DNA of 46,398 bases from Acidobacteriota bacterium (GTDB lineage: Bacteria; Acidobacteriota; Blastocatellia; UBA7656). The notes below the pieces were generated by a model that was not told the origin of the DNA, did no database searches, and saw nothing but the letters and a program-made list of their open reading frames with translations. The stretch spans positions 45,202 through 91,599 of the forward strand of contig JBBPIG010000027.1 of assembly GCA_038040445.1 (NCBI GenBank), read 5' to 3'. The translations under genes and the position numbers were made by a program. How positions within the stretch are numbered: the stretch's first letter is position 1; each line of letters starts with the position of its first letter. Below are positions 2,729 through 19,304 of the stretch, in pieces.

Positions 2729-4012
2729 ATGGCTCAGAGCAGATGTGCGTTTTCAATTGATGATGAACTAGGAGAATCAAATCAGCCAGTCACTCGCATA
2801 GACAAGTTTGTCAGCAACCACTCGCACGAATTGGTAAGCCGTCGCCGCTGGTTTCACCAGCATCCGGAGATCGCATACTACGAGGAAGAAACGGCTAATT
2901 ACATTCTCGACCAGTTGAGACAACTTGGAGTGCAAGCGATCACTCGCGCAGCCAAAACGGGAGTTATTTGCGACATTGGAGTTGGCTCGCCGACAGTGCT
3001 CTGCCGCTTCAACATGGATGCACTACCGATACCCGAAAAGACTAGTCTGACCTACTCGTCACTAAACGACGGATATTCTCATGCATGTGGGCATGACTTC
3101 GAACTCGCGTGGGGCCTGATGCTTGCGAAGTACTATCAAGCCTACCCGCCTAACGGCACTGTGAGACTCGTCTTTCAACCAGCGGAGGAAGACCCTGGTG
3201 ATGATGTAGAATCGCGGACCGGAGGACAGTGGCTCGCACAGCTGGGCATATTTGACGGGGTTGATGGAGCGTTCTCGTTGCACGTCGATCCCGAGCTACC
3301 GGTTGGCACTCTCTCGATAGTCGAAGGTCCGGTTACGGCGTCAGCATTTGACTTTGACATCGCTATTCGAGGGAAGGCATGCCACGCGGCTAAGCCGCAC
3401 CAGGGACTTAACCCGATCCCTTATGCTGGAAGAGTCATAGATGACCTCGCCGCTTTGGAAACGGGCCTTAGAGCGCGTATCGGTGAAGACGGTTTCGTTC
3501 TCATAACTCCATCTCAGGTGGCCTCTAGGGTCGATCTTGACTCGCCTGAAGCAGGCTCCAGAAACACAATCCCCGAGCATGTTTTCATCAGCGGCATCAC
3601 CAGAGTCAGGCCTCCACAAATGCAGACGGAGCTTTTGGTTGGGCTCGAGCGGATTTGCGAGAAGTACCGAGACCTGATCGATTGCTCGATAAAGGTAGTA
3701 AAGAGAGCTCCAGCAACCGTGAACGACAGCCGTTTGGTGCCGTTCGTACGCGAGGTCGGCAGCAGATTAGGGCTCACGCCGGTCGAGAAAGTAACCAGTT
3801 GGCGGGATGACGCCGGCTGGTGCTCTGAGAAGGCGCCGACTGCGCATGGATTTGTTGGGGTCGAAACGGACAACCAAAGCGTGCTGCATTCGCCGTACTT
3901 CAATCCAGACGAGCGCGGGCTACAGATCGGATTGAAGGTGCTGATCGGGGCGACGGAGTTGTTTCTTGCGTCGCCAAGCAGTGGCCGACTGTCTGCCGCA
4001 CTCGATAACTAA
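2729..4012 (+). CDS. M20D family amidohydrolase / peptidase
   Basis: A 427-residue zinc or manganese amidohydrolase of the M20D group (N-acyl-amino-acid amidohydrolase, IAA-amino-acid hydrolase, carboxypeptidase). Visible motifs in order: FHQHPE (residues 42-47), RFNMDALPIPE, ACGHDFEL (metal-binding His and Asp), FQPAEEDPGDD (catalytic Glu pair), LHVDPELPVG, the dimerisation domain with GKACHAAKPHQGLNPI, and near the end the VGVETDN/LHSPYF region with the last metal His. There is no signal peptide, so it is probably cytosolic. The ATG at 2729 is chosen because GGAGG at 2714-2718 precedes it. It leads an operon with an amino acid importer 17 bases downstream, which suggests it releases amino acids from an imported acylated or small-peptide substrate. 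That substrate is inferred. Confidence 0.92.
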   Translation: MAQSRCAFSIDDELGESNQPVTRIDKFVSNHSHELVSRRRWFHQHPEIAYYEEETANYILDQLRQLGVQAITRAAKTGVICDIGVGSPTVLCRFNMDALPIPEKTSLTYSSLNDGYSHACGHDFELAWGLMLAKYYQAYPPNGTVRLVFQPAEEDPGDDVESRTGGQWLAQLGIFDGVDGAFSLHVDPELPVGTLSIVEGPVTASAFDFDIAIRGKACHAAKPHQGLNPIPYAGRVIDDLAALETGLRARIGEDGFVLITPSQVASRVDLDSPEAGSRNTIPEHVFISGITRVRPPQMQTELLVGLERICEKYRDLIDCSIKVVKRAPATVNDSRLVPFVREVGSRLGLTPVEKVTSWRDDAGWCSEKAPTAHGFVGVETDNQSVLHSPYFNPDERGLQIGLKVLIGATELFLASPSSGRLSAALDN

Positions 4013-4029
4013 CGAAAGGGATTACTCAA

Positions 4030-4917
4030 ATGAAAAACATTAGAAATCGAAAGCATCTCGCTACCTTGCTGCCTCTCGTGGTTCTGTTAGCTGTTTCGAT
4101 CATTCCTTTTTCTGGCTGTGACAGGCAGAATGCAGGACAAAAGCGTGAATCGCTGCTTGATAAGATTCTTCGCGAAAAGAAGATACGATGCATGTACATC
4201 AACTACCCCCCCACGATCCAGGTGGATCCTAACACCAAACAACTTTCTGGTATCTTCTATGATGTCGTTAAACGATTCGGTGAAGATACAGCGCTCGAGA
4301 TTGAATGGGTTGGGGAGACAACTTGGGGCACAATGATTGAGGATTTGAAGAATGACAAGTATGACTTGCTTGTCACTGGAGTCTTCCCGACAGCCGTCAG
4401 GGCAAAAGAATCTGCATTCACGAAACCGATCCTTTATATCGGCATGGGCGCGGTAGTGCGAGTCGGCGAAACGAGGTTTAAGACGGTTGAGGATTTCAAT
4501 AATCCAAATGTCACGATCGCGACGGTTGACGGCGAGGTTGGCGATGCTTATGTCAAGCAATTTCTGCCTAAAGCTAACCGACAGGCAATTCCAACCGGTG
4601 AAATCCCACAGGCAGTCGACCAAGTTGCTTACAAGAAGGCTGACGTAGCCATTACCGACATGTTGAGCGCCGGGAGGTACGTAATGCAGCATCGTGACGC
4701 TGTATACGATATGTTCGCAGATAAACCCATTCGCGTATATGGCGCTTCAATGATGACGAAACGTGGGGAATTTGAGTTTCTTAATCTGCTGAACGTAGCG
4801 CTAGACGAGTACCTCAACTCAGGCTTCATTGATTCCCTGGACAAGAAGTACAAGCAAGCTCCCAACGAATGGCTACCCGCAGCAAAGATGTTCGGACAGA
4901 CAGAGAAAAATCAATAA
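4030..4917 (+). CDS. Amino acid ABC transporter substrate-binding lipoprotein
   Basis: A 295-residue periplasmic binding protein of solute-binding family 3. A lipoprotein signal peptide is visible: charged MKNIRNRKH, a hydrophobic stretch, then a lipobox ending PFSGC with Cys30 as the lipidation site. The mature part shows the family layout: IRCMYINYPP first strand, GIFYDVVKRFGED, TWGTMIEDLKNDKYDLLVTG, FTKPILYIGMGAVVR, and the second lobe VTIATVDGEVGDAY. GAAAGGG at 4014-4020 is the ribosome binding site. It lies between the amidohydrolase and the permease and should deliver a polar amino acid or small acylated derivative. The exact ligand cannot be read from sequence. Confidence 0.93.
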   Translation: MKNIRNRKHLATLLPLVVLLAVSIIPFSGCDRQNAGQKRESLLDKILREKKIRCMYINYPPTIQVDPNTKQLSGIFYDVVKRFGEDTALEIEWVGETTWGTMIEDLKNDKYDLLVTGVFPTAVRAKESAFTKPILYIGMGAVVRVGETRFKTVEDFNNPNVTIATVDGEVGDAYVKQFLPKANRQAIPTGEIPQAVDQVAYKKADVAITDMLSAGRYVMQHRDAVYDMFADKPIRVYGASMMTKRGEFEFLNLLNVALDEYLNSGFIDSLDKKYKQAPNEWLPAAKMFGQTEKNQ

Positions 4918-5021: not shown

Positions 5022-5678
5022 ATGGACGTGTTTTACGCGTATAGGGAGGCGTTCCTTCAAGGTTTTCTGATAACAGTCGAACTGTCAGTTATTATGATAG
5101 TCGCTGGCACAATTATCGGAATCCTGTGGGGAATACTCGCGACGAGCCGTTTCCCGCTGCTCAAGTATGCAGCGGTTTGGAGCTATGAGATAATCAGAGC
5201 TGTTCCCGCTCTCGTGCTCTTATTTTGGTTTCACTATCCTTTTCAACGGATTCTCGATGTATCAATCGACCCCTTCATCACGTCTGGGTTTGTTTTCACG
5301 ATCTTGAACGCATCGTACATCGCGGACTACGTGAGGAATGGAATTCTGAATGTTCACAGGGGGCAGGTTGAGGCTGCAGAGTCGCTTGGGATTCCGGGTG
5401 CGACCATTCTGCGTCGTATCACATTGCCCGAAGTGCTGCGGTCATTGCTCCCCACGTTTGTTGGACAGAATGTTCACATGATGAAGACGATCCCTCTCGC
5501 AAGTATGATTTCTGTGGGCGATTTATTTCGCGTCGCCCAGCAAGTGAATGCGTACACTTATAAGACCGTAGAGGTTTATTCGGTGGTTGCGATTGTCTTC
5601 ATACTGATGATTCTTCCTCTCACCTTTTTTGGCCGGCGGCTGGAAACGAGCAAATGGTTTCTCAGGAGAACAGCGTGA
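5022..5678 (+). CDS. Polar amino acid ABC transporter permease
   Basis: A 218-residue inner-membrane permease of the HisM/GlnP type. Four to five hydrophobic segments are visible, starting with FLITVELSVIMIVAGTIIG near residue 15 and ending with VVAIVFILMILPLTFFG near residue 195. The cytoplasmic EAA loop that docks to the ATPase is clear: EAAESLGIPGATILRRITLP. Only one permease gene is present, so the channel is probably a homodimer. Its stop codon overlaps the GTG start of the ATPase (GTGA at 5675-5678), showing translational coupling. A 104-base gap separates it from the binding-protein gene. Confidence 0.93.
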   Translation: MDVFYAYREAFLQGFLITVELSVIMIVAGTIIGILWGILATSRFPLLKYAAVWSYEIIRAVPALVLLFWFHYPFQRILDVSIDPFITSGFVFTILNASYIADYVRNGILNVHRGQVEAAESLGIPGATILRRITLPEVLRSLLPTFVGQNVHMMKTIPLASMISVGDLFRVAQQVNAYTYKTVEVYSVVAIVFILMILPLTFFGRRLETSKWFLRRTA

Positions 5679-6547
5679 CGTTCGACGTTGAAAATGATGT
5701 CGTTGTCGACGTTCAAGGTTTATCGAAATCGTTCGGCGATAAGCATATCCTCAGTGACGTAGGATTTCGCATTCATCGCGGCGACGCCGCGGTTATAATC
5801 GGTCCGAGCGGCGGCGGCAAAACCACCCTTCTGCGCTGCCTCACCCTTCTTAGTCAACCTGACGAGGGAAGCGTCAGAATCGGTGACGTTGCGTTCACCA
5901 TGAGACAGGCCGACGCTGGTGGAATAGGACCATGGTTCGGACTGAGCAAGCTACTTGCCGGCAAGACTGCCCTGGAAAATGTTTATCGAACTAACGGCAA
6001 GTCACGAGACAGACTCTCGTCAGAGGAATTGCGTCGACTGAGGTTGCACTGTGGATTTGTGTTTCAGCAATACAACCTCTGGCCCAACAAAACCGGCTTG
6101 GAAAACATCATCGAAGCGCTGGTCGTCGTAAAGAAGCTCGCGCGCGACGAAGCCGAGAAGCGGGCGATTCAAGTCGCCGAAGAACTGGACATCACCGACA
6201 TACTCAAGTCTTATCCTAATGCGATGTCGGGAGGCCAACAGCAGCGGCTAGCCCTTGCACGCACCTTGGCGATCGAGCCAACAGTCCTGCTTCTGGATGA
6301 AATAACCGCAGCCTTAGACGTCGAGGTCGTCGCGGACATACTTTCCGTATTGACGAAGATCAGACAACAAGGAAGAACCATGGTGCTGATAAGTCATCAC
6401 CTGGAGTTTGTAAAAAGAGTTGCAGATAGAGTATTCTTTCTCGCCGACGGTAACCTGCTCGACTGTGGTACGCCGGAAGAAGCGTTCGAGCATCCACCAA
6501 CTGAACGCTTGCAGAAGTTCCTCGGGCAGGTGGTGGCCACTCACTAG
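5675..6547 (+). CDS. Amino acid ABC transporter ATP-binding protein
   Basis: A 290-residue ABC ATPase energising the preceding permease. Motifs: Walker A GPSGGGKTT (from residue 43), Q-loop FQQYNLWP (about residue 130), signature MSGGQQQR, Walker B LLLDEITAALD, and the switch His in LISHHLEF. The GTG start at 5675 is preferred over an ATG at 5654, because GGAGA at 5665-5669 precedes it and GTGA overlaps the permease stop. Unusually, about 80 residues separate Walker A from the Q-loop, against roughly 40-50 in GlnQ/HisP. The extra stretch (MRQADAGGIGPWFGLSKLL onward) is a family-specific insertion. The next gene starts eight bases after the stop, so the signalling cassette downstream is probably in the same transcript. 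Confidence 0.93.
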   Translation: MTFDVENDVVVDVQGLSKSFGDKHILSDVGFRIHRGDAAVIIGPSGGGKTTLLRCLTLLSQPDEGSVRIGDVAFTMRQADAGGIGPWFGLSKLLAGKTALENVYRTNGKSRDRLSSEELRRLRLHCGFVFQQYNLWPNKTGLENIIEALVVVKKLARDEAEKRAIQVAEELDITDILKSYPNAMSGGQQQRLALARTLAIEPTVLLLDEITAALDVEVVADILSVLTKIRQQGRTMVLISHHLEFVKRVADRVFFLADGNLLDCGTPEEAFEHPPTERLQKFLGQVVATH

Positions 6548-6555
6548 TTCAAGAA

Positions 6556-9048
6556 ATGGGGTCTCCTCACATGGACCCAAACGACTCTTCATCGACGAAC
6601 CTATTCTCGGAGAAGGACCGCGCCCTGTTCTTCGCGGTCACTCAGCGACTCTGGGATCTCATCAACAAAGACACTAGACGCACCACCCAGGAGCAATCGC
6701 AAGAAGGCGAATTGCAGCAGTATCTTGATGGGAAGGATGCCGAACGTGAGTTTATCCAAGCGAGAGACCGGCTCCAAATCTACGGCGGGGCGCTGGCGAT
6801 CTGGAACGAAGTTGACAGAGAGTTGGTCCATGTCCAGGACAGAAAAGATTACCCATCAAAGTATCGGAGTTCACTTGAGGCGTGCTCCTGCGATCTAACC
6901 GAAAGGATCTTTCGTAACGGCAATTGGGAGGTCAACCCTTTCGATGAAGTTGTGAATTTCATGTTCATACGATCTAGGGGCAGAGAGCATTCGGAAGCTC
7001 TTCCGGAGTTCCTAGAGGAATTCCGACTCGCTCCAGAACATAGCCGGATGAGCCAGGTAGAGAGAAAGTACAGGTGTATCTTTTGCAGTGATGGCGAGGT
7101 TGGCGCTGGTACCCTGCTTCTAAGGCTCACAATGGCATACATGATGGCCTCCGGCCTGTGCGGGAATGACATTGACAGTTTTCTTTCGTCGACCTTCGTG
7201 CGATCCGAGGACGGATACGAAAAGCTAACGTTTGATTCGTGTGCTTCCAGCCCCGCCGAGAAGTGTAGGGATGACGGAATGATGGCCTCCTGCCATAGTC
7301 TTCGGGAAATAACGTGCAAGCAGTTCCCGACTGTGGATGTTGCGAAGCCGGACTCTACTGGAAAAGGGCGTAAAGACAACCTAGAAAAAATCAAGAGCAA
7401 GTATGACGAAATCGATCGCGCGATCTACCCTCCAGGTGGCCACACCATTTTCCGGGAAATGGAACTGCACGGTTTGATAGAGCGTGATCCGGGCGCGACC
7501 GGTGTAATGGTCGAGATCACAGAGCGTTACGTCAATTTGTGCCGCTTCATCTTCGGGCAAACTAATGACAGAATCAGACAAGATGCCAAAGCCAAAGACA
7601 TGGCGGTTAAGTGGCGTCACAGGAAGCCTGGGGACAAGCCGGAGGACCCTGGAGAAGTTTGTCTTTGGTTTGATCGATCGGATGAAAAAGAAACCCTGAG
7701 CAAGCTATCGACATACCATAGCCTCAATCGCGATAGGGAGTGTCTTCGCCGCTATACTGAACGTGAATTTAGTGAAGACACGAAGGCGATCACCTTAGAT
7801 GCATTTGAAGAGCAGATGCGCTTTATCTGTAAAGTTCTGCTGCTATCTATCGATGTCGAGGCGTTTGGCGCCACGCCCGAGCCGAGGACAAACATGAAAC
7901 GCGTGTTGGGAACGATCGATGAAGTAGTTCGTTTTCCAACTTACCCGTATTTTATTTGGCGGCTGAACGGAGTCGAGTCGAGCGAAACGAAAACGCGGTT
8001 GGGGGGAACATCGGCAATGGCACACATCGCGTTGCAACTCGGGCTCACGCAGACAGGAGCAACCTATAAGGAAATTGGATACCTCCTAGCCGGCATTCGG
8101 AACGTGTACGAAGATCCTGAAGGCAATCGACAAGTCATTTCGATCCACAGTGACGAGACTCAGCCATTCAAAGAATTGGTTACGAACATTCGGGCGCTAT
8201 TCCTCCCTTTGATGTCACCGTTGATGGATAGAATCTACTACGGCGAGATTCTAAAGGATTCGGAATGGAAGGATGTCGTGTTTCAATTAAGTCACTCCAT
8301 CAATAACGACATGATGCAATTGCGGACGAGGATAGCATGGGCCCATCACAAGACTAAAAACATCCCGGGTGGTCCCGCCGAAGAGCTAAGGCTTGCCTCA
8401 GAGAGTGCGCAAAACGCTTCCGACTTGATGGATCTCCTAGTGGGATATCGAAGGCTCTTCAGGGAGGAGGGACTAACGAAAGTCGAATTGGAGAAACAGA
8501 AGGAGGAGAGGAATGCTTTTCTAAGCAACAAAACAGAACGCTTAAATGTCAGGGACCTCGTGCGAGAGACGCTTCAAACCCTGGCCGGGACAACCAAACT
8601 CCTCCGACTCAATGTTGAGAATCATGGTAACGCGATCAGGAGTTTGATTGAGGAGAACTTGGACACGTACACTTCCAACTGCGACGACTTTGCGCTGTCT
8701 TATTGGCGAGCACCAGTACGCTTAATTATCCTGGATTTGTTCAAAAACGCTGTACGCCATACTAAACCCAATTCACCAGAGCTTCGAATCGAAGGCAGGC
8801 TCCTGGATGATGGATGGTTCTCTCTCTCACTCGCTAACAACAAGCGGATGACTCAAGAGGAATGGAACTACTGTGAAAACGGGATCGAAGCGAGAGGATT
8901 CAGTGCCTCCATCAAAGTGGGAATGAAAGTAGTACGTTGGTGGGCGGCCGTGCTCGGATGGAAAATCCATTTCGAGAACCCCTCGACCCATCAGGAAGAC
9001 TGGACGAGGTGCTCGATAAAAATCCCTCCTGGAGGGGCTATTTCATGA
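6556..9048 (+). CDS. Histidine-kinase-like protein with large unknown N-terminal region
   Basis: An 830-residue soluble protein. Residues 1 to about 550 match nothing I recognise and contain a Cys-rich stretch (YRCIFCSDGEVG ... SCASSPAEKCRDDG). From about 570 it resembles a dimerisation/phosphoacceptor helix: FQLSHSINNDMMQLRTRI, with H580 in the phosphoacceptor position. A GHKL ATPase domain follows, with an N-box LFKNAVRHT (N731). The next motif is degraded: where DxGxG is expected the protein has LANNKRM, and the glycine lid is weak (SIKVGMKVVRW). ATP binding is therefore doubtful. The first ATG (6556) lies eight bases after the transporter gene; ATG 6571 is an alternative start. The stop overlaps the next start as ATGA. 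I infer a divergent or pseudo-kinase working with the next protein. Confidence 0.65.
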   Translation: MGSPHMDPNDSSSTNLFSEKDRALFFAVTQRLWDLINKDTRRTTQEQSQEGELQQYLDGKDAEREFIQARDRLQIYGGALAIWNEVDRELVHVQDRKDYPSKYRSSLEACSCDLTERIFRNGNWEVNPFDEVVNFMFIRSRGREHSEALPEFLEEFRLAPEHSRMSQVERKYRCIFCSDGEVGAGTLLLRLTMAYMMASGLCGNDIDSFLSSTFVRSEDGYEKLTFDSCASSPAEKCRDDGMMASCHSLREITCKQFPTVDVAKPDSTGKGRKDNLEKIKSKYDEIDRAIYPPGGHTIFREMELHGLIERDPGATGVMVEITERYVNLCRFIFGQTNDRIRQDAKAKDMAVKWRHRKPGDKPEDPGEVCLWFDRSDEKETLSKLSTYHSLNRDRECLRRYTEREFSEDTKAITLDAFEEQMRFICKVLLLSIDVEAFGATPEPRTNMKRVLGTIDEVVRFPTYPYFIWRLNGVESSETKTRLGGTSAMAHIALQLGLTQTGATYKEIGYLLAGIRNVYEDPEGNRQVISIHSDETQPFKELVTNIRALFLPLMSPLMDRIYYGEILKDSEWKDVVFQLSHSINNDMMQLRTRIAWAHHKTKNIPGGPAEELRLASESAQNASDLMDLLVGYRRLFREEGLTKVELEKQKEERNAFLSNKTERLNVRDLVRETLQTLAGTTKLLRLNVENHGNAIRSLIEENLDTYTSNCDDFALSYWRAPVRLIILDLFKNAVRHTKPNSPELRIEGRLLDDGWFSLSLANNKRMTQEEWNYCENGIEARGFSASIKVGMKVVRWWAAVLGWKIHFENPSTHQEDWTRCSIKIPPGGAIS

Positions 9049-10838
9049 TCACGATCCATTGCTTAGACGACGAGCTCAACGTTGGGGAGGGGTCGGTCCC
9101 AATGTTTCTCGAAATGGCGTTCGGCGACGGCTGGGGTACAGACTTGAAATACGAATCGTTCCAAAACGCCGAGCAGTATTTCTCCAAGATAGGAACGGCG
9201 ACCCAACTGCTGCCCGACATTCTACTCTGCGATATCGATCATTTGCTCAACCAGGAGTTGGGCGACATCGTTTACCAAGAGAGGCACTACGATAAAAAAA
9301 TCGCCGGCGTACCTGTAATTCGCAAGACGTTTGACCTCGCTGGTATGGCAGGTAAGTATGTCGAAATATGCTTCCTCACCGGCCACTACTTGGATAGTCC
9401 TGCCCTTTATACAGAGATTCAGGAGTTACTGAAGGAAAACATCATTACTGGTCTGGAACGCCAGATCCAAAAGCAGCATGCGATCCCGGATATATCTTCT
9501 AATTGGGCGGACAAGCATCAGAACCAATACACGCTAGACAGAACGCTAAGAATATTGTGCAGGAATGTCGGCAGATCAGTTATTAGACGTCTGCGAGACT
9601 ACGAAGTCGCCCCAATAAGCAAAGCCTGCTATGAGGCTATGAATGGGGGGAAAAGCATCCTACAATTCGGCGATAGTAAGTTCAAAGTAGCAGGTTCTTT
9701 TTGGACGATCAGGCAGTTGTTCATAGGTTGGTGGGACACTGCGGGCACAATCACGACGCCGGATCTGGCCCATCAGATTCTCTTGGAAATAGGGGGTCCT
9801 CTCTCAAGCCAACTCACGCATCAACTGCTGAGAAGTGGCTGGCGGCATGGAACGCGAGAATATAGCCGAGCTTTTGCGGAGCGCCTGAAGAAGGCGACTT
9901 TCATCTCGCCAGGTGCCGCCCCCCAATCGATTGCTGTGGGGAGTCATTCTTCCTCCCCAATTCTGAAATTGTCATTGGGGGAATCCGTAACGACCTGTGC
10001 AGAGGATTTGGTTCCTTCTCTGCTGGAAGGCGGCGTCTCGATCAGACTAAAAGACTATGATGTCCATCACCTGTTTGCCAGATGGAGAGAGATCTTCACG
10101 CAGCAGCAATTCCCAGATGACAGCACGAATTTGGCCTGGACGTATGACCACGCGAAGAGCATTCTGAGATTCCAAAACAGAGTAAGTTTCACCCTCGACA
10201 TCCCAAATTGGGATGGAGGCACGGACGGGCCGATCGAGAATCAGCCTCGTGCGGGAATGATGTACTTCTCATTGAGAGAGATCTTCGACATTGCTCTTCG
10301 CGTCGACACTCGAGCATACCCGAATGAACCTCAAGGTCGGAAGGTGGATTCCCTCCTTCGAGAAATTGCGAGTCACGCATTTACGGATGAGTCGACAAGC
10401 AATCAAGTGCTGTGTCGACATACTCTAGAGGGCGATTGGGCCACCGAACCCGTGTTGGAAGGGCTAGAAGCATCCAAGCAGTTAAGGCTACAAAGGGACA
10501 GAGGCTTTCGTCTGTTCGTCGCGGACAATGGGGTAGGAATAGATCCTCGAGAAGCTCAGTTCATTAGTCGATGGAACCGCCGAACCGGGGGCCTTTTGAG
10601 TCACATAGTACCGAGAGCGAAGAATTGGTGTTCATTCTTTAATGCCTATTCGGAGCATAATGGCGAAATATTCAAGATTGATTTTTTCCGTTATGAGCCA
10701 AATTACGAGATCCTCGATTCTGGTTGGCCTTCGACCGTCCCCGAGGAGATTAAAGGGAATCATCGTGGAACGTGTTTCGAATTCGTTTTCATAGTTCATC
10801 GCGACGAGGTGTTGTATGAACCGAGTCTTAGTCGTTGA
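9045..10838 (+). CDS. Receiver-like plus GHKL ATPase-like protein
   Basis: A 597-residue soluble protein. Residues 1-125 look like a receiver: acidic pair D8-D9 in HCLDDELN, a probable phosphoacceptor at D63 in LLCDIDHLL, and T112 in FLTGHY. The conserved Lys after the fifth strand is not visible. The middle is unassigned. The C-terminal third resembles a GHKL ATPase: VADNGVGIDP supplies DxGxG at D494, and GTCFEFVFIV looks like the last strand. The likely N-box, LREIFDIALRV, has Ile416 where the magnesium-binding Asn should be. The ATG at 9045 overlaps the previous stop (ATGA) and follows GGAGGGG at 9031-9037; a longer frame begins at 8937 but has no such support. Tight coupling suggests a complex with the upstream kinase-like protein. 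Confidence 0.65.
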   Translation: MITIHCLDDELNVGEGSVPMFLEMAFGDGWGTDLKYESFQNAEQYFSKIGTATQLLPDILLCDIDHLLNQELGDIVYQERHYDKKIAGVPVIRKTFDLAGMAGKYVEICFLTGHYLDSPALYTEIQELLKENIITGLERQIQKQHAIPDISSNWADKHQNQYTLDRTLRILCRNVGRSVIRRLRDYEVAPISKACYEAMNGGKSILQFGDSKFKVAGSFWTIRQLFIGWWDTAGTITTPDLAHQILLEIGGPLSSQLTHQLLRSGWRHGTREYSRAFAERLKKATFISPGAAPQSIAVGSHSSSPILKLSLGESVTTCAEDLVPSLLEGGVSIRLKDYDVHHLFARWREIFTQQQFPDDSTNLAWTYDHAKSILRFQNRVSFTLDIPNWDGGTDGPIENQPRAGMMYFSLREIFDIALRVDTRAYPNEPQGRKVDSLLREIASHAFTDESTSNQVLCRHTLEGDWATEPVLEGLEASKQLRLQRDRGFRLFVADNGVGIDPREAQFISRWNRRTGGLLSHIVPRAKNWCSFFNAYSEHNGEIFKIDFFRYEPNYEILDSGWPSTVPEEIKGNHRGTCFEFVFIVHRDEVLYEPSLSR

Positions 10839-11556
10839 CCACACGGAGGGAACCTCACACGAGGTTGGGTGGAAGTCTTTCAATTGCGCGAATGGCGCGT
10901 CCGTTTCACTAACGTTTTGCACAAGCTGGCAACAAGTAACTGATCAGAACCTGCTGGCTTCTACGCGTTATGAATACCTGGTTGTTCATCTCGCCGATTA
11001 TTTTGCAACAGCGTACTTTTTCAAAGACTTTCTGTCACTTCTCGATGGCGTCGCACGCGAAACGCGCGATGAAGGCACAAATCAGACCTGGTACGAACGA
11101 GGGACACACTTCGATGCTGTGCTAGGCTTTGCCGGGGGCCCATACGCCCTGCAGGATGTCCTTGGATCTGTGCGAGTTCCTGAACCTTCAATTCGTCGGT
11201 TGCATGAGAAAATGAACGCCGGCACCTTCGAGTATCTTGCAGGTGTCGAAGAAATCAAGTCGCGCCTTTGTTTCGACCCCGTGCTCGAAGCAAAGCTGGA
11301 AATCCTACATATGTGCCTTACCCCTGAAGGCTGCTCGCGGCTAATGAAGCAGCATGCAGGAAGCTGGGGACGTTTCGCCTCATTACAAATTGAGGTCACC
11401 CGTGAAAATGGAGAAAAGACTTTCACCGGCAACCTTGCCGATGCGATAAAGGAGCTAGCCCATCCCGAGCGAGATTGCTTCAGTCCCGAGTACGTAGGCA
11501 TTCTTTCCGAAATCCGTGATGCGCTACTCCCAATCTCCAAGCCACGACCGGAGTAG
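10816..11556 (+). CDS. Unknown protein with receiver-like start, 246 aa
   Basis: A soluble protein beginning MNRVLVVDHTEG, like the first strand of a response-regulator receiver but with His instead of the second acidic residue. A second hydrophobic strand YEYLVVHLADYF sits where the phosphoacceptor strand would be, yet carries no suitable Asp, and FDAVLGFAGG follows. This suggests an inactive receiver fold, inferred from pattern only. The C-terminal half is helical and unassigned. It overlaps the preceding gene by 23 bases, with GAGGTG about ten bases before the ATG. A 90-base gap follows before the next gene. No enzyme motif is seen. Confidence 0.6.
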   Translation: MNRVLVVDHTEGTSHEVGWKSFNCANGASVSLTFCTSWQQVTDQNLLASTRYEYLVVHLADYFATAYFFKDFLSLLDGVARETRDEGTNQTWYERGTHFDAVLGFAGGPYALQDVLGSVRVPEPSIRRLHEKMNAGTFEYLAGVEEIKSRLCFDPVLEAKLEILHMCLTPEGCSRLMKQHAGSWGRFASLQIEVTRENGEKTFTGNLADAIKELAHPERDCFSPEYVGILSEIRDALLPISKPRPE

Positions 11557-11646
11557 CGTAGCCAGCGGCCGAGCGCTCATTCGGCGTGGACTATCCCCCT
11601 TCCTACTATCGGTCACCGGCCCGTTTCCTCGATGGCAAGGAGGCTA

Positions 11647-14433
11647 ATGAAGACTATCATCATCGACGACAATGAAGACTTCGCCAAGAGACTCATGGAG
11701 AGACTCGAAGGTGAGACCGCATTGATCGCTTGCGGAGATACCCATGGCAGCAAAGAGGAAATCGAGGGCTTAGTCAAAGACGAGTTGGACAAAGCGAAAA
11801 CAGAGAATGAGAGTGGCAACCTGAGAGTGATAGTGAATCGGGAACTGAAATCTTGCGACCTCAGGCGACAGGACTGCGTCGGCGAATCGATTCTTTCAAA
11901 TCTAGCCTGGAGATACGATTTTCCCTTCTTGATGTATTCTTTCCTTCCGCCGCGGCCGGACCAGGTAAACCAAACTATTCCGTTGCCGTCAGGAGCATTC
12001 CGCCGGTTGCCTTCTCCCAGTGCGCAAGAATTGTTGGACCTGAAGATAAGTCAGTGCCAGGACTACATCGCTCGGGCTTTCCCAAAGATGCAACACGGGT
12101 TCAAGGCGGTGAGCCCGGCTGCCGTTAGTGTCGTGCGGCTCGCATACGGCGCCGTTCTGGCAACAAGAATCAAGAGAGATGACCAGTTCAAGAGGCTAGA
12201 CGATATACTCTTGCAGTTCTACGCAGATGAAACTCTCGCCACAATCGGGGAGTTTCTGGAGGTACTCAAACGTCTCGTGGGATTGTACAAGATGAAGGCA
12301 GGGAGTCAGCCATCTGAGGTCGAGGCCAGCAATGCCGATCGCTCGCGCTCCGTGTCTTCTCAGGTTGTAGTGGTCGATGACGACGCGATCAACATCGACG
12401 GGAGATCACAGTGGGCCGCGGTGTTGGAGTTAATGTTCAAAGAGTATGGAATCTCTTTCTCGAGCATCTTACCATCGGAGATTGGAAGCGATGCATCCAA
12501 AAAAGCCCTAATGAAGGCGAGCTTGATCCTATTGGATATTGATTTCTCGGGCGACCCGCAATATGGAGACAATTCGCAATTCGGCGGCCTCAAGCTTCTT
12601 AAAAAGTTTTGTCAGGAATTGCCTCACATTCCTGTCGTGATGATGAGCAGATATGATGAGGTAAGTTTGTATGAGGAGTGCCTTCGTCTGGGTTGTTATG
12701 CCTATTTGACAAAGGACTGGGGCTCCTACAGCCGATTCAGGGCCAAGGATTCCGAGCGAAAGTGGTTCGAAGAGTGGGATAAGGCCATTACAACGCCCCT
12801 TCGGTTCAACCCGTTCTTTAAGGATGCTGCAATGCTTGATAGAAGGGGCTTGCTGCAACCTCAGGAAATCGAAGGTCTCACCGAGGCATTGAAGGAAATC
12901 AAAGCGCCGAAGGAGCATACCGCCAAGTCGCTTGCTTCCTTCTTCGAGACTTTCGTCGTGGCGTATCTGTCGTCGCGAGGCGAATACACCGGGCAAGTTC
13001 TCTACGACTCGGTGAGGAAGGTCGAAAAAAATGAAAGCGGCCTGCGTGTTGGTCAACTCCTTCACGTGATGAGGAACAATATCGTTCACGGACTGGCACA
13101 CATAGACAGTTTTGATTCGTGGCTGTTTCTTGTCCTTCAAAGGGTTTTTGTACTTAGGTGCTTTAAGCACAGTTCTTTGAAGGATAACGCCTGGACTGAG
13201 GCGACATTCGATGAGTTTCTACGGCCATTTGGTCGCTACGATTTCACTTCGGATGAGTTCTTCTTCAAGAACGAGGAGGGAAAGACAAGCGAGATCAATC
13301 GACTATTCCTGATACGACGCAATGAGTTGCTTTCGGAGATCACCAAGAGGAGTTCTCTTGATTACGGTGAGTTCCAAGAGCAGATCAACGCATTCATCAG
13401 ATGCGTAGCGGCGACCTTTCCGCGACATTTCCTAGCCAAAAGGAATGCACCGTTATGTGAGATCGGAAGGTCTCCGACAAGAAAGTTGATAGGCTTAATA
13501 ACAGCCCGCGTCACTCGTAGGGGTAAGCCATTTGAGCGCGGTTATGAGGTATTCGGGTCAGTTTGGTGGCTTGTCGAATGCTATTCCAATCTGGGAGGGC
13601 ACACTCGAAATATCCAGGACTATGAGCGGAAGTTGCTATGGTTCCTCGCCGCGAGATGTTGGACTTGGTACTATGGGGTGCTCCTCGGGACGCCGAACGA
13701 AGCGATGTTCTTGAACGCGCTCGACGAACAGAATCTCTCGCGGGAAATCGCGCTCACGCGTGCCGATGAGCGGCTGGTCGATCATTTTCTGCGGCGCAAC
13801 CTGACTGATTATGTTCCCGCCTATTGCCTCTTGGTCGCAATGACGTCGATCAGCAACTTCACAAGTGAGAGAAAGAGTCGACTCTTGGACGAGATCAAAC
13901 GGAGCCCAGTTCCGGAATTGACGCGCCGTGAGATCCAGACAGTGGAGAGTGCTATCGAGGACGTCAGGGGTTCGATATCAAAAAGAAGGGCTGAAAAAGA
14001 GGAGTATGAAAGAGAGCAACTCGATCTCACGCGAGGAGCGGCGGCTAAGAGAGTCGCCGAGTTCCTCACTGGTCTGGAATCGAAGATAGCTGACAGCGAC
14101 AAGGATATCCAGCAACTCAACGGGCGTTTGGAAGGGCTGGAGGACGAGAAGCGTCTCATCGAGAGACAGATCAATGATCGAGCGCGGTTGAGCGATACAC
14201 TTGAAAGGGTCGAAGACGAAGAAGCGAATCCCCCCAGTCATATGGGCCGGGTCGAGATGCTTCAAAGCCGCATCAAAGCCAAGTTCTCAACTTTGAGGCG
14301 AGTCTTCAACGTACAGTTAGACCCCGAGATATGGCTCGCCGGCGCAGGAAAGGCCAAGACCTACATAGAGGTTCGAACGGCGATCGATGACCTTAAGACG
14401 GCCCTCAACGACGCGACGATTGAGCGGAAATGA
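11647..14433 (+). CDS. Multi-domain receiver protein with HEPN-type Rx4H motif and coiled coil
   Basis: A 928-residue soluble protein. An N-terminal receiver-like region starts MKTIIIDDNEDFAKRL, but its phosphoacceptor strand (RVIVNREL) has Asn. A second receiver at about 238-370 is canonical: D244-D246 in VVVVDDDAIN, D297 in LILLDIDFSG, S334 in MMSRYD, K356 in YLTKDW. Around 430-500 lies a helical region with LLHVMRNNIVHGLAHI, giving R476-N477-x3-H481, the Rx4H motif of HEPN ribonucleases. An unassigned stretch follows, then a long charged coiled coil (about 770-870). The ATG at 11647 is chosen because the receiver begins there and AAGGAGG lies at 11637-11643, though spacing is short; 11632 is the alternative. 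The stop overlaps the next start (ATGA). The RNase role is inferred. Confidence 0.7.
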   Translation: MKTIIIDDNEDFAKRLMERLEGETALIACGDTHGSKEEIEGLVKDELDKAKTENESGNLRVIVNRELKSCDLRRQDCVGESILSNLAWRYDFPFLMYSFLPPRPDQVNQTIPLPSGAFRRLPSPSAQELLDLKISQCQDYIARAFPKMQHGFKAVSPAAVSVVRLAYGAVLATRIKRDDQFKRLDDILLQFYADETLATIGEFLEVLKRLVGLYKMKAGSQPSEVEASNADRSRSVSSQVVVVDDDAINIDGRSQWAAVLELMFKEYGISFSSILPSEIGSDASKKALMKASLILLDIDFSGDPQYGDNSQFGGLKLLKKFCQELPHIPVVMMSRYDEVSLYEECLRLGCYAYLTKDWGSYSRFRAKDSERKWFEEWDKAITTPLRFNPFFKDAAMLDRRGLLQPQEIEGLTEALKEIKAPKEHTAKSLASFFETFVVAYLSSRGEYTGQVLYDSVRKVEKNESGLRVGQLLHVMRNNIVHGLAHIDSFDSWLFLVLQRVFVLRCFKHSSLKDNAWTEATFDEFLRPFGRYDFTSDEFFFKNEEGKTSEINRLFLIRRNELLSEITKRSSLDYGEFQEQINAFIRCVAATFPRHFLAKRNAPLCEIGRSPTRKLIGLITARVTRRGKPFERGYEVFGSVWWLVECYSNLGGHTRNIQDYERKLLWFLAARCWTWYYGVLLGTPNEAMFLNALDEQNLSREIALTRADERLVDHFLRRNLTDYVPAYCLLVAMTSISNFTSERKSRLLDEIKRSPVPELTRREIQTVESAIEDVRGSISKRRAEKEEYEREQLDLTRGAAAKRVAEFLTGLESKIADSDKDIQQLNGRLEGLEDEKRLIERQINDRARLSDTLERVEDEEANPPSHMGRVEMLQSRIKAKFSTLRRVFNVQLDPEIWLAGAGKAKTYIEVRTAIDDLKTALNDATIERK

Positions 14434-16532
14434 CGACTTCGAAATACTTGGTGCTTTGGAATAGCGGTGATTTCGCGGACCGACTCCGGAAGGTTTTCGG
14501 CCGCGAGAACGTCTTGACCTCAACCGCCGAAATGGCGGCGGCCATTAACCAGACCGGGGTCGCCGGCGTCATAGTACTCGGTGAGCTGAATTGGGATCGC
14601 CATAGACCATCCGACTTGTACGGGATCGAGTACGCCAAACGAAGCCTCAGGGCCGAATACAAGATCAGACACCCGATCCTCTTTGTCTCGTTCCTGGATC
14701 TCAGCGAGATAGTGCGAGATCCCAAGCGGGAAATAGTCGTTGCGGTAGGCCACGACTTCCTGCGACTTCCTTCATACCCCGCCCAGTGGCAAGAGAAAAT
14801 CGATAATATGCTGCCACTGACGGACCTTCAGTTCACGGACGTCTTTAACAATCTTTGCAACTTGAGGGGCCTGATCGACGAAACTATTCATCGAGTTCAG
14901 GGTGTCTTTCGGACCTTGTTATCCAAACCAAATCCAGATTCCACTACTCTTTCAGCGATGAGGGACCATCTGGAGAGTGGCTTGAAGAAAATAGTCTCCT
15001 TGTTGGGCGATGCCAAAGACGCCAAGTCGAGAGGACAAGAGGTCATTCAGCGTTTTGAGAAAGAGATTCTGGATCAGGAAGCTTTTGGCGATTCGCTCGA
15101 CTTTCTGTCAAGAATCGGAGAGGAGCTAAAGTCGCTCTTACCTGAAGCAGAGGGGACAGGAGAGAGGGCGGATGGCGAGACTGCTGCTCAACCAAACACT
15201 CCCTGGAAAGTGCTACTAGTGGACGATGAGCCTGACGGGCTGAATCTGATTTTGGGAGCGTTCGGTCGAAAGGGGATTGACTATGTCGTTGCGAAAAGCG
15301 TCAATGAGGCGGAGCGAATAATAGAACAGGATATCAACAACCAAATCGTTGTCGTTGTCTGTGATTACAGGCTCTACGAAGTCAGAGGCGGAATACTCAG
15401 GCAGCAGAGTAAGCAAGGATATGATCTTCTTTTTGACCTTTCCAGAGGAGATCGCTTCACCAGACTTATTGCGCTCAGCGGGTTGAGCAGAAGGTTTTTG
15501 TTGGAGAGTTTTCAAAAGTACCACGCACGCGTCGCTATTTATTCCAAGAACGATCTCCGCAGTACCGGTGCCACTAACATTTTCGTCGATAACATTCTGG
15601 ATACCGGCAGTGAAGTATGGGAAGCGCTGTGCTCACAGCCCGAAGGCGGTGATTGGGAGCATTTGAGGCCTTTCTATGTTGCGCATCGTGAGTCCCATGA
15701 TTATGCCTCAGCCGAGGAAAAAATCAGTCAGCGTGCCCTAAGATACGTTTCGCAGATCGATTCAATTCTGAGCTGCTCCGACCCTGAACTGTTGCTGAAT
15801 CCGTCATTGCCGCAATTGAAGGATCTTCAAGCGAAAATGGTGTCTAAGGATCCAAGGAACCCTAGGCACCTGGAGGTATTCAGGACCAAGCTCGTTGCGC
15901 GGAGAATTGCATTATGGCTTTCTTTCGTAAAAGGGTTCAGTGCGGTCCGAATTTATGCGGCCTTAAGCGGCGCGCTGGACTTAGCAGTTCCATTAGGCCA
16001 GATTTCAAACGAGTTGAGACGCAACGGCAATCCCAAAGAATTCGATGCCAACTCGATAGAAAGCAGGAGCAGGGAAAAGCTGGAGAACAAGGCCAAGACA
16101 CTCATTAATACGAACCTTGCCCTAGCTCTCTCAGAACTTCCCTCTGGCATACTTGTCGAGGAGAAGAGGTGGTTCGAACACGATATCGGAATCAGCATAT
16201 ACGCCGTGCAGGAATTGTTATCGCAAATTGCCTACCACATACAGGTTGGATTGGAGTACTGGCTTGAGGAGAATCCAAATCTTGTAGAGCGCTTACCGGG
16301 ACTAGGTGAGATATTCGGAAGAACAGGACACCTAACAATCGGGAGCTTCTCGAATGCCAAGCGGACTTTGCTTTTGATCAACAATGCCATATCGGGTAAG
16401 GACGACCGCAAGCGATTTGGCCAGTTACTTCATGAAATAGAGACGGTCATCAGAACTGACAAGTACTGTGTCCCTTACCTGGAAGGGTTTTCTAAGTATA
16501 CCCAAAGACTCGTGGAGTCGAACATCTCGTAG
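14430..16532 (+). CDS. Double-receiver response regulator with unknown C-terminal domain
   Basis: A 700-residue soluble protein. Residues 1-125 have receiver-like strands (KYLVLWNSGD, GVIVLGELNW, PILFVSFLD) but no acidic pocket, so this receiver is inactive. A helical linker (about 130-255) leads to a canonical receiver at about 260-385: D265-D266 in VLLVDDEPDG, D312 in VVCDYRLYE, S350 in ALSGLS, K373 in YSKNDL. The C-terminal 300 residues are helical and match nothing I know; no DNA-binding or catalytic motif is visible. The order (inactive receiver, linker, active receiver, unknown output) mirrors the previous protein, suggesting duplication of an ancestral gene with different outputs. It is translationally coupled by ATGA. 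Confidence 0.7.
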   Translation: MTTSKYLVLWNSGDFADRLRKVFGRENVLTSTAEMAAAINQTGVAGVIVLGELNWDRHRPSDLYGIEYAKRSLRAEYKIRHPILFVSFLDLSEIVRDPKREIVVAVGHDFLRLPSYPAQWQEKIDNMLPLTDLQFTDVFNNLCNLRGLIDETIHRVQGVFRTLLSKPNPDSTTLSAMRDHLESGLKKIVSLLGDAKDAKSRGQEVIQRFEKEILDQEAFGDSLDFLSRIGEELKSLLPEAEGTGERADGETAAQPNTPWKVLLVDDEPDGLNLILGAFGRKGIDYVVAKSVNEAERIIEQDINNQIVVVVCDYRLYEVRGGILRQQSKQGYDLLFDLSRGDRFTRLIALSGLSRRFLLESFQKYHARVAIYSKNDLRSTGATNIFVDNILDTGSEVWEALCSQPEGGDWEHLRPFYVAHRESHDYASAEEKISQRALRYVSQIDSILSCSDPELLLNPSLPQLKDLQAKMVSKDPRNPRHLEVFRTKLVARRIALWLSFVKGFSAVRIYAALSGALDLAVPLGQISNELRRNGNPKEFDANSIESRSREKLENKAKTLINTNLALALSELPSGILVEEKRWFEHDIGISIYAVQELLSQIAYHIQVGLEYWLEENPNLVERLPGLGEIFGRTGHLTIGSFSNAKRTLLLINNAISGKDDRKRFGQLLHEIETVIRTDKYCVPYLEGFSKYTQRLVESNIS

Positions 16533-16548
16533 GAGCTGCAGCTTTATT

Positions 16549-17157
16549 ATGCCAAGAGACAACCCCGGCAATCTGTCTCCGTCGAAGATCATCAACGATC
16601 ATTTCTCTCGTCTCTCCGAGGAGGACTATCTCGAGGTACAAGGTGAAGCAATCCTGTTCTTATCGAGGGACACCGGTCATAGCAGCCTTAATCAACCCAT
16701 ATCAGAAGAACAAGCTGCTCTTCTCAAAAAGCACCTTTCTCGATACTTTGAGGAAAAGCAGAGGGAACTGTTCGGAAGATCTTTATTCGGTAGGTCAGGC
16801 GTCAGAACTGTTTCAGATTTTAGAGATGAGACAAACGAGAACACATCTGATGAGGAAGTAATCAGTCGTATTTCGGGGCTCGCCCAAGACGCCGATGGAA
16901 GGATGATAAGCCTCGAAAAAGGACTTGGTGATGCAAACCAAGCGCGTAGGGAAGATTTCTTGCAATCGCTCGATCTACGGAGAGAGCAATTGCGCGAAAT
17001 TCTTCCTGTGATTGAATACGAAGCTCTTGAGATCAAGACGCAAGACGAGATTGACCGGCAACCCCGATTCACTCTTGGCTTTGATCAAATTGGTTTGCAA
17101 ATGCTCTTTCGCCGGGCTTGCATTCGCATGTTGTGGCATAGCCAGAAGACGAAGTAG
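16549..17157 (+). CDS. Hypothetical protein of the receiver cassette, 202 aa
   Basis: A soluble, mainly helical protein with a short predicted start PSKIINDHFSRLSEEDYLEV, a charged middle (SDFRDETNENTSDEEVI) and a C-terminal helix rich in Arg and aromatic residues (IGLQMLFRRACIRMLW). No family was recognised. ATG 16549 is chosen as the first Met after the upstream stop, with AGGAG at 16531-16535; a longer frame from 16468 would overlap the previous gene without a ribosome site. With a 16-base gap from the double-receiver gene it is the last clear member of the cassette, and it might be an adaptor or output subunit. Confidence 0.55.
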   Translation: MPRDNPGNLSPSKIINDHFSRLSEEDYLEVQGEAILFLSRDTGHSSLNQPISEEQAALLKKHLSRYFEEKQRELFGRSLFGRSGVRTVSDFRDETNENTSDEEVISRISGLAQDADGRMISLEKGLGDANQARREDFLQSLDLRREQLREILPVIEYEALEIKTQDEIDRQPRFTLGFDQIGLQMLFRRACIRMLWHSQKTK

Positions 17158-17525: not shown

Positions 17526-18317
17526 ATGTTTCATCAGTTGAGATTCTTCCTATTGGCCCTGGCATTGTTAGTGCTTTTCCTAGCCCAGGCCTGCGTGGGC
17601 ACGAACAGAGGTGAGCCCCCTGCAAAGGCGGTCACGAAGAACGGCCCAGCTGTTAAGGTGGCCCTATTCCTGGACCGCACCGGATCCTGGTCCGAGATGC
17701 GCATTAAGCCCGTGGCCGCCGAGGACATCAAACCGTTGCTCGATTTGATTGCCCAGACGGGAGGCGAGATCGCCTTTGGAATCATCAGGGAGCAAAGTAA
17801 CCGGCCCCTCGTGCGAGCGCGTATCGATCCTCCTCCCGTCAAGCCGGAAGAGCCCAAGAAGGGCAATCCCCTTAAGGACGTCGAGGAACGAGCGAAGTAT
17901 CAAACGCTACGGGCGAAATACGACGATGACAAGCGACAATGGGAGAGCGACAAGGACCAGAAATTGCAGAGATTCCTCGCGGAGATCAAGCCACTTGTCG
18001 ATCAGGAACCTGACGCAAGGGTCACCGATATCTGGAACGCCGTTGCGCGAGCCGAGCTGTTCCTTCTCGAAAAGGACTCCTCCGCCGCCGCGTCCCAGCA
18101 CTCTTACTTGGTACTCATAACCGACGGCCTCGAGACCGCAAGTGGGAAACCTGTGGTTCTCAAGAGTCAGGCCAAGGTAGTGCTCGTAAACGGAGCGGGC
18201 AAGATCGGCGCACTTGAGCCGCTCAACCCGATTCGATTCGAGGGTCTTGAAGCTGCGATGAGGTGGATTTCCGCCACAGAGCTTGGAGAAAAGAAAAATG
18301 CAGAATACACGCATTGA
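17526..18317 (+). CDS. vWA-like lipoprotein
   Basis: A 263-residue exported protein. A hydrophobic signal (FFLLALALLVLFLAQAC) ends at Cys23 in a lipobox-like context, so it is probably lipid-anchored. The mature part starts with a von Willebrand A-type strand VALFLDRTGSWSEM, with the MIDAS sequence DRTGS at D50. A later strand YLVLITDGLET fits the last metal-binding Asp. A charged insertion (about 105-150, rich in Lys, Asp and Glu) interrupts the domain. GGAGG at 17517-17521 supports the ATG at 17526. It overlaps the next gene by 20 bases, so both act together, probably with the membrane kinase two genes downstream. Metal-dependent ligand or protein binding is inferred from the family. Confidence 0.7.
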   Translation: MFHQLRFFLLALALLVLFLAQACVGTNRGEPPAKAVTKNGPAVKVALFLDRTGSWSEMRIKPVAAEDIKPLLDLIAQTGGEIAFGIIREQSNRPLVRARIDPPPVKPEEPKKGNPLKDVEERAKYQTLRAKYDDDKRQWESDKDQKLQRFLAEIKPLVDQEPDARVTDIWNAVARAELFLLEKDSSAAASQHSYLVLITDGLETASGKPVVLKSQAKVVLVNGAGKIGALEPLNPIRFEGLEAAMRWISATELGEKKNAEYTH

Positions 18318-19287
18318 TCGCGCAGCCCAACTGGACGAGACGCTTCGTCAACGGGAACGGGAGCGCCTCAGCCAGTACGGCACCGAGCTTCACGCCTATT
18401 CCCACGATGTGTCGAAACACCAGCGCAAGTTGAATCAGACGTGGGAAGATCTCGATTTCTCCGTCAAGGTAAACGCAGTGCTGGCGTTCGCCGACGCCAG
18501 GAAGATCGCCGGTTTCGTTGTCGTACTGATGGCGGCCCTGGCGGCTTACCTTCTTGACTACATTATGCTGTCGTCGGTGAGCGAGTACTTCGCAAGCCGC
18601 GTCTACGACAGCGAATCTCTGAAGGCCGCTGCAAGAGTCATCGTCCCGGCGGCCATCATCACGCTCGAGATGCTGATCTCCACCCAGTGTTGCTTTGCGA
18701 ATCAGCCCCTTCCGCGCAGTCGCAGTCGTGTAAGGTGGGGGTGGGTGTTTCTCGGCCTTGTCGTAGGAGTCGTCGTTCCGTCGATGTTGATAGCCGTCTC
18801 ACTTGCCTCACAGCCGCAGAATGCTGACAATGCAGCCAAAGCCGTCTTCACCTGGGAGACCATTGGACTTGTAGGCCTATCACTAGCCGTGCACGGGGCC
18901 ATACTCTATGGAGGAGCGCTAGCGCTTGAGGCCAAAGCCTGGGCCTTGGTGCGAATCAACCAACGCCTATTGAGCCGAAGAATCGCCAGGTTGGAGAACA
19001 AGCTTGAGGACGCGGCAACGGCCCTCACGAATGTGTTCTGCGAATACGTCGACGCCCTTAAGAATTACAACGCGCAAGTTCAGGCGGCGAAACGGCTCCC
19101 TGCCATATCGCTCGATGCGCAAACCAGGGCGCTGCTCGCTGAGAGGATGGGGAGGGACTTTATGTCCCGGCAACTCTCCTTCGACCTTGATTGGAATTCG
19201 GCCTGGCCAGTTTCACAGCCGGACGTTCTCGGTCTTCCTGGAAGCACGCGATCCGATCGAACTGGGGAAGCCGGCATGGTTACCTAG
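18298..19287 (+). CDS. Four-helix membrane protein with cytoplasmic coiled ends
   Basis: A 329-residue inner-membrane protein. Four hydrophobic helices are visible: IAGFVVVLMAALAAYLLDYI (about 70-90), VIVPAAIITLEMLIS (about 115-130), GWVFLGLVVGVVVPSMLIAV (about 147-166), and a fourth around TIGLVGLSLAVHGAILYGG (about 190-210). The first 60 residues and the segment after 215 are charged and helical, probably cytoplasmic. No family was recognised. ATG 18298 is preferred over TTG 18283, with GGAG at 18285-18288. It lies inside the tail of the vWA gene and 17 bases ahead of the kinase, which points to a vWA lipoprotein, membrane protein and kinase complex. Confidence 0.65.
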   Translation: MQNTRIDRAAQLDETLRQRERERLSQYGTELHAYSHDVSKHQRKLNQTWEDLDFSVKVNAVLAFADARKIAGFVVVLMAALAAYLLDYIMLSSVSEYFASRVYDSESLKAAARVIVPAAIITLEMLISTQCCFANQPLPRSRSRVRWGWVFLGLVVGVVVPSMLIAVSLASQPQNADNAAKAVFTWETIGLVGLSLAVHGAILYGGALALEAKAWALVRINQRLLSRRIARLENKLEDAATALTNVFCEYVDALKNYNAQVQAAKRLPAISLDAQTRALLAERMGRDFMSRQLSFDLDWNSAWPVSQPDVLGLPGSTRSDRTGEAGMVT

Positions 19288-19304
19288 CCCGGCGACGAGC
19301 TGAG

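Follow-up and report, generated by a model that had tools for sequence, protein, structure and literature searches.

Organization of the locus

The DNA analysed here, referred to as the window, is a stretch of 46,398 nucleotides from an Acidobacteriota bacterium (Blastocatellia, UBA7656; assembly GCA_038040445.1, contig JBBPIG010000027.1, positions 45,202 to 91,599), numbered from its first nucleotide. At positions 6556-17157 it carries six open reading frames (ORFs) on the + strand, termed g1 to g6, which a previous reading of the sequence alone (the sequence-only reading) had described as a six-gene signalling system of kinase-like, receiver and HEPN-motif proteins. The six ORFs were confirmed, and they belong to a real, rare and conserved multi-gene signalling locus that is larger than first noted. 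The recurring elements of this unit span ~2690 to 19287, with an importer and enzyme cassette upstream and a pair of genes for a vWA-like and a transmembrane (TM) protein downstream, and the interval 6556-17157 is too narrow. All genes of the window described below lie on the + strand.

The close packing by ATGA overlaps proposed earlier was observed at g1/g2 and g4/g5, two of the five junctions, and not at the other three. The overlap of g2 with g3 is 23 nt, a gap of 75 nt separates g3 from g4, and the g6 frame as listed (16468-17157) begins at a GTG within g5, the ATG at 16549, 16 nt past g5, being the likelier start. The guanine-cytosine content of g1-g6 (47-52%) is slightly lower than that of the window (54%), a difference too small to mark a clear island. 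No Rfam match was found in positions 1-24000, and promoter and terminator scans gave fewer predictions than in shuffled sequence.

Pfam, NCBIfam and PADLOC provided nothing convincing for g1, g2, g3 and g6 and assigned none of the six proteins to a characterised pathway, whereas assignment of all of them to one would have refuted the sequence-only reading. The absence of a DNA-binding output was also borne out, as no DNA-binding Pfam family matched g1-g6 at E ≤ 1. No TM segment was identified in the six proteins by hydropathy. The Pfam family Response_reg scored below cut-off in g4 (E 1.3e-6) and g5 (E 0.033), and coiled-coil-type matches were present in g4. The same genome holds 64 Response_reg matches, indicating that ordinary two-component proteins are plentiful there; the receiver of g4 is among the weak ones and that of g5 is not in the list.

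Conservation of gene order and distribution

The core order kinase-g3-g4-g5 recurs in three further genomes of the same phylum, termed G121, G060 and G073, with g5 proteins 21-43% identical; the gene order is thus not unique to this genome, and uniqueness was what the sequence-only reading had named as refuting it. The window displays an M20 enzyme, polar-amino-acid-type ABC genes, g1-g6, the vWA-like and TM genes and a Ser/Thr kinase. On the minus strand of G121 the order is branched-chain-type ABC genes, Asn_synthase, OTCace_N, a kinase of 1060 aa, g3, g4, g5 and g6, followed by a 127-aa protein, vWA-like, TM, a protein of ~290 aa (termed '290'), an AAA ATPase and a DegT aminotransferase. 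G073 comprises five ABC genes, a Haem_oxygenas_2 protein, a kinase of 577 aa, g3, g4, g5 and a 152-aa protein, after which vWA-like, TM, '290', AAA, DegT and CHAP genes are found. In G060, five ABC-type genes and a PALP enzyme precede two kinase-like ORFs, a transposase-like ORF, g3, two tandem g4 genes and g5, with a DUF4407 TM protein, a 1162-aa multi-TM protein lacking a Pfam match and a 159-aa protein beyond. The transposase-like ORF, located between the kinase-like ORFs and g3 (L026:4599-5813), apparently interrupts the kinase. G060 and G073 belong to the same genus, yet their g5 proteins are only 46% identical.

BLAST searches from the window retrieved g5 and the downstream genes g7 and g8 in other loci, and g3 and g6 in G121 only; g1 had no match in the other loci at E 0.01. 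Across 396 genomes of the phylum, g5 matched nine, with matches extending beyond the receiver in its own genome, G121 (E 7e-149) and G060 (E 3e-9). A three-row g5 profile matched 24 of 396, with long matches in the same three only; it detected one of five genomes in the class of G121 (G121 itself) and five of 119 in the family of G060, where long matches were restricted to G060 and G073. Searches with g2 (396 phylum genomes) and g1 (297 genomes) returned only their own genome, while g4 matched 6 of 98 relatives, its own match alone exceeding the receiver stretch. Single-protein scans of genomes and viral contigs revealed no relatives of g1 and g2, nor of g5 in viral contigs, and viral contigs scanned by alignment were also negative for g5 and g4. 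In plasmids, tblastn found nothing for g1-g5 and two insignificant matches for g6 (E 0.4-0.6), and scans with one of the tandem G060 g4 proteins (g4a), G060 g5, the G121 kinase and G073 g4 as queries found none. The gene order is conserved beyond chance in a locus that is rare and patchily distributed.

Kinase-like proteins g1 and g2

g1 (6556..9048; 830 aa) is a soluble kinase-like protein in which residues 1 to ~550 have no assigned type. By pattern it contains an H-box-like SHSINN (8290..8307; H580) and an N-box-like N731, and it lacks DxGxG. g2 (9045..10838; 597 aa) presents the converse arrangement, with DxGxG at D494, within the G1-box pattern DNGVGID (10524..10544), and neither H-box nor N-box pattern. 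Shuffled, permuted or reversed sequences served as controls for the hhalign scores. A GHKL-type ATPase predicted at the C end of g2 is supported by its score of 27.1 to the E. coli HATPase profile, which none of 25 shuffles reached (maximum 14.9; reversed 9.8). A receiver at the N end of g2 was considered and rejected (13.7; 4 of 25 shuffles as high). As the boxes present in g1 are those missing from g2, and vice versa, the two proteins may together constitute one split kinase. This arrangement would be special to the window, since the G121 kinase displays H-box and N-box patterns without DxGxG, and the G073 kinase DxGxG only. No counterpart of g2 was found in the other three relay loci.

Receiver proteins g4 and g5, and proteins g3 and g6

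g4 (11632..14433; 933 aa) comprises an N-terminal domain, an active-type receiver, an RxxxxH region and a coiled coil. The predicted receiver (12364..12720), identified with hhalign and Foldseek, carries DDD (~249-251), D302 and K361. A g4 profile aligned to the E. coli receiver profile with a score of 37.5, compared with up to 16.5 for 15 permuted controls and 14.8 for the reversed one, and window g4 alone scored 29.1 (0 of 25 shuffles). Against the other g4 proteins the receiver of window g4 scored 35.6 (0 of 30 shuffles), and a single-sequence model (mean pLDDT 42) found receivers in the PDB by Foldseek with a best E of 2.8e-4. g5 (14430..16532; 700 aa), which has homologues in G121, G060 and G073, consists of an N-terminal domain, a helical region, a receiver and a helical C end. 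Its predicted receiver (15213..15554; D266, D312, K373) scored 32.0 as a profile (15 permuted controls up to 15.1; reversed 13.2) and 19.5 as the window protein alone (0 of 25 shuffles). The D, D and K columns are invariant in both alignments. Receivers in the two large proteins, as originally described, are thus supported by profile scores and conserved residues. The N ends of g4 and g5 resemble each other (28.4; reversed 10.6), and classification of these isolated domains as certain receivers was rejected because the signal was weak.

The single RxxxxH motif of window g4, RNNIVH (13072..13089), is of the HEPN type. In all five g4 proteins, those of the window and four counterparts, such a motif lies 120-143 residues past the receiver lysine (RNNIVH, RNRASH, RNHASH, RSFYSH, RSHYSH), with a polar residue after R (N in three, S in two); G073 g4 carries a second, earlier one. 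The region is helical in the single-sequence model, at pLDDT under 50. Elsewhere in the same genome (G000:C2:314913-318108), three consecutive DUF4145 (HEPN-type) matches adjoin a weak receiver match.

g5 also contains H-R-V-Q-G (14886..14903), the histidine of which aligns with that of HKIKG in ArcB. In a four-row profile this alignment scored 30.0, compared with up to 18.4 for 30 permutations, 15.8 for the reversed profile and up to 20.1 for other forward or reversed alignments; read ungapped, the G060 and G073 histidines lie one residue off. A phosphotransfer (HPt) domain in g5 is suggested by this resemblance, and only suggested. The best Foldseek match of the g5 model, KaiA (E 3.3e-3), was set aside, the mean pLDDT being 42.

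g3 (10816..11556; 246 aa) is conserved in place and is 29.6% identical over 142 aa to its G121 counterpart (E 1e-9, BLAST). It had been taken for a probable inactive receiver, an assignment that was rejected, as its hhalign score of 12.7 was equalled or exceeded by 3 of 25 shuffles. g6 (16549..17157; ~202 aa) has a counterpart in G121 only (30.5% over 177 aa, E 5e-14).

Upstream importer and downstream module

Four genes precede g1. An M20 peptidase/amidohydrolase (2690..4012; Peptidase_M20, E 1.7e-24), probably the variable amino-acid enzyme of the cassette, is followed by an amino-acid-type solute-binding protein (4030..4917; SBP_bac_3, E 8.8e-20), an ABC permease (5022..5678; BPD_transp_1, E 2.1e-16) and an ABC ATPase (5654..6547; ABC_tran, E 1.1e-30) that stops 8 nt short of g1. 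All four relay loci have an amino-acid ABC importer directly upstream, in the same direction, and it belongs to two different families: the window has SBP_bac_3/BPD_transp_1, G073 and G121 have Peripla_BP_6/BPD_transp_2, and G060 has Peripla_BP_6, the binding protein alone of its five ABC-type genes having been scanned with Pfam. The companion enzymes are unrelated (M20 in the window, Haem_oxygenas_2 in G073, PALP in G060, OTCace_N and Asn_synthase in G121), and in G121 the last enzyme gene lies 259 nt from the kinase. Replacement of the importer family while its place is kept suggests, from four loci of which two are of one genus, that amino-acid handling matters to the unit.

Downstream, g7 (17526..18317) encodes a vWA-like lipoprotein by motif, with DxTxS/DxSxS after an N-terminal hydrophobic stretch and 33-36% identity to its counterparts, and g8 (18283..19287) a multi-TM protein by hydropathy, with counterparts at 21-22%. 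The pair is found downstream in three of the four relay loci (window, G121 and G073). A MIDAS-like DxSxS-type motif is present by pattern in all five vWA-like proteins, and no Pfam VWA match was obtained for g7 and the three counterparts scanned. The vWA-like profile matched 3 of 282 phylum genomes (its own, G121 and G016). A Ser/Thr kinase with SH3 (19191..20807, probable start ~19296; Pkinase E 3.3e-37, SH3_3 E 2.3e-8) follows; its membership is uncertain, as no counterpart was seen in the other loci.

In the relatives the pair extends into a five-gene module of vWA-like lipoprotein, TM protein, ~290-aa protein, AAA ATPase and DegT aminotransferase, whose order is the same in two phyla, whether or not the relay accompanies it (L051:11857-18012, L024:6562-12665, L060:5521-11546 and L054:10767-16443), and lies near conjugation genes in two of these four loci. 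Without the relay, this order occurs in G016, near a gene for a TrwB/T4SS-type coupling protein; on the Arthrobacter plasmid pZXY24, near TraA, the AAA and DegT genes show similarity, the vWA-like, TM and '290' genes a looser resemblance, and no relay is present. The window retains the vWA-like and TM genes, and elsewhere its genome has only a 24%-identical AAA. In alignment scans the module AAA matched 14 loci, all of them AAA only and none with a vWA, TM or '290' match; at one (L085) a DegT-like match lies 8 kb off on the other strand. The module AAA was not found in phages. As a unit, the module recurs across phyla and is unnamed in the libraries used. Beside the G016 module, a 1269-aa protein (L060:210-4019) without PADLOC match contains DFDGD, by eye reminiscent of RNA polymerase beta'.

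Proposed mechanism and alternative explanations

We propose that the locus encodes a phosphorelay in the cytosol whose amino-acid input is exchangeable and whose outputs are non-transcriptional, with a role in dormancy or defence, and to this proposal we assign a probability of about 0.4. In this mechanism the ABC importer and its companion enzyme would import or convert an amino-acid-like ligand that is read by the soluble pair g1/g2, g1 providing the histidine and N-box and g2 the nucleotide-binding G1 box. g4 and g5 would then take up the phosphate at their receivers, perhaps via the HPt-like helix of g5. Phosphorylation would switch the C-terminal part of g4 that carries RxxxxH and that would most likely be a growth-slowing RNase of the HEPN type, and the vWA-like lipoprotein and the TM protein, judging from their conserved adjacency, would form a membrane output arm. 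Controlled dormancy or defence would thus be set off by an amino-acid signal. In favour of this mechanism are the gene order kept in four genomes, the receivers of g4 and g5, the GHKL domain of g2, the similarly placed RxxxxH in 5/5 g4 proteins, the lack of DNA-binding families and TM segments in g1-g6, importers of two families with differing enzymes in 4/4 loci, and the patchy distribution. Two-component systems mostly end at DNA. A relay that ends at an RNase-like domain and a membrane module, and whose input is swapped as a cassette, would provide a testable link between amino-acid sensing and growth arrest or defence. A broader formulation, which we regard as rather doubtful, is a new modular class in which amino-acid importer, enzyme and sensor cassettes can be swapped and drive a conserved relay, which in turn switches both a HEPN RNase under receiver control and a mobile membrane module (vWA/TM/AAA/DegT). 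Such a circuit would gate immunity or dormancy by a metabolite and would, in the window, use a split histidine kinase.

Several observations weigh against the proposed phosphorelay. Of the two ATPase/kinase-like proteins originally described, the GHKL domain of g2 stands, and the ATPase of g1 is hardly supported (HATPase_c E 0.17; 2 of 25 hhalign shuffles as high), nor was sequence kinship of g1 to the kinases of the other loci found. The HPt score drops to 22.4, 18.4 and 17.7 in subsets of the g5 rows. G073 g4 and one of the tandem G060 proteins (g4b) have S rather than N/D/H after R in the motif. RxxxxH is common by chance, with six in the other five window proteins, so that the motif alone does not exceed chance and the evidence lies in its matching position in the four counterparts. 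Membership of g4 in DUF4145, represented by a profile of one HEPN family built from six sequences of four genomes, was rejected, as the C-terminal part of g4 scored 13.6 and permutations up to 18.9. The HEPN motif claimed earlier is present at a shared position; the HEPN assignment comes from that position, not from a profile or fold match, and an RNase activity of g4 is a prediction from motif and position. BLAST at E 0.01 did not link window g4 to the g4 proteins of the other loci, and its tail is weakly tied to theirs (score against the tail profile 22.6; as high in 0 of 30 shuffles for the tail as query, 2 of 30 for the full protein). Finally, the importer is linked to the relay by position only and could belong to a neighbouring operon.

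The conserved importer would also be expected of an ordinary amino-acid-responsive operon, in which fast-diverged regulators control the transporter, the enzyme and the membrane proteins through protein contacts and RxxxxH is incidental, as its chance frequency and the missing HEPN profile match would allow. Transporters of this kind are known to be paired with two-component systems: in the accessible text of PMC7386598, AauS-AauR with AatJ/AatQMP likewise places an amino-acid ABC importer beside a histidine kinase and a receiver protein. The Aau system has, however, a membrane sensor and a DNA-binding regulator, in contrast with the apparently soluble kinases g1 and g2, which have no membrane-spanning sensor, and with the lack of any recognised DNA-binding domain here. 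Two large receiver proteins, additional conserved genes without known family, and a rare and patchy locus that was not found in the nearest relatives also fit poorly with a routine operon, which we consider unlikely.

An anti-phage system built from two-component parts, in which the kinase senses infection, the receiver-effector g4 kills or arrests the cell and the transporter is a mere neighbour, appears to us quite unlikely. Detocs is such a system, with a kinase, a receiver protein and a receiver-effector fusion. These three are common to both, although Detocs is not known to have the transporter, the two large receiver proteins, the RxxxxH region and the vWA/TM pair; no shared family was found in PADLOC 2023, in the output of which no Detocs model was seen named, and this library may lack it. 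The patchy distribution, and the occurrence of the downstream module on a mobilizable plasmid elsewhere, are compatible with defence. So is the presence of WYL, Cas3e and Cas8e genes (type I-E) after the G073 locus, Cas3e starting 7.5 kb after DegT, and of a defence-like CHAT-SIR2_2 and nSTAND1-TPR pair in the window (30173-35036), 9-14 kb past the last listed gene. Defence genes were not recognised in the stretches read around G121. Evidence of enrichment beside defence genes, which the sequence-only reading had suggested looking for, is thin, cas genes near one of four loci not amounting to enrichment. The importer is retained in 4/4 loci, relatives of g1, g2 and g5 are absent from the viral contigs and plasmids searched, and PADLOC has no match for g1-g3 and g6 and coiled-coil or marginal ones only for g4 and g5, all of which argue against an anti-phage role.

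The module loci near TraA on the Arthrobacter plasmid and near the coupling-protein gene in G016 could point instead to control of a mobile element, the relay governing maintenance or transfer of an integrated element with vWA/TM/AAA/DegT cargo. This is improbable: conjugation or integrase genes were not recognised in the window or in the G121 stretches read, and the module of the window is reduced to two genes, with no close relative of its AAA in the same genome.

Comparison of the proposed phosphorelay with other systems places its parts in different settings. The RxxxxH motif is shared with the HEPN RNases of PMC3710099, g4 proteins having a polar residue after R in 5/5, although g4 does not match the DUF4145 profile; in the accessible text of that paper 'receiver' occurs a single time, in connection with a TM domain that receiver proteins also have and not with a receiver-HEPN fusion. 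With the vWA-centred conflict systems (PMC7159879, PMC8195603), as far as the available text describes them, the locus shares a vWA-like component, an AAA ATPase (in its relatives) and receiver domains, which are among the effectors there; unlike these systems, the vWA-like part is here a lipoprotein and a relay is present, and the 2020 paper states that histidine kinase domains are absent from its vWA-associated effectors. According to the accessible part of PMC11229360, Cam2 similarly has a REC domain in a non-transcriptional effector, in a defence receiver without an amino-acid transporter, and has been proposed as a nucleotide sensor that works without a kinase, unlike the relay proposed here. 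A receiver-HEPN relay with an amino-acid importer was not found described in the open-access literature searched, including the available portions of PMC13092281 and PMC12839542, with subscription papers and preprints outside that scope. HATPase and REC are among the domains of predicted systems in the DefensePredictor legend, and these systems could therefore include a related one.

Other features

Two fusions were observed in these regions. In G073, the stretch that separates the locus from the type I-E cas genes encodes DUF1810 fused to a PP2C phosphatase (L052:1665-3149), and at 38367-39383 of the window a ferredoxin domain is fused to a guanylate/adenylate cyclase domain.

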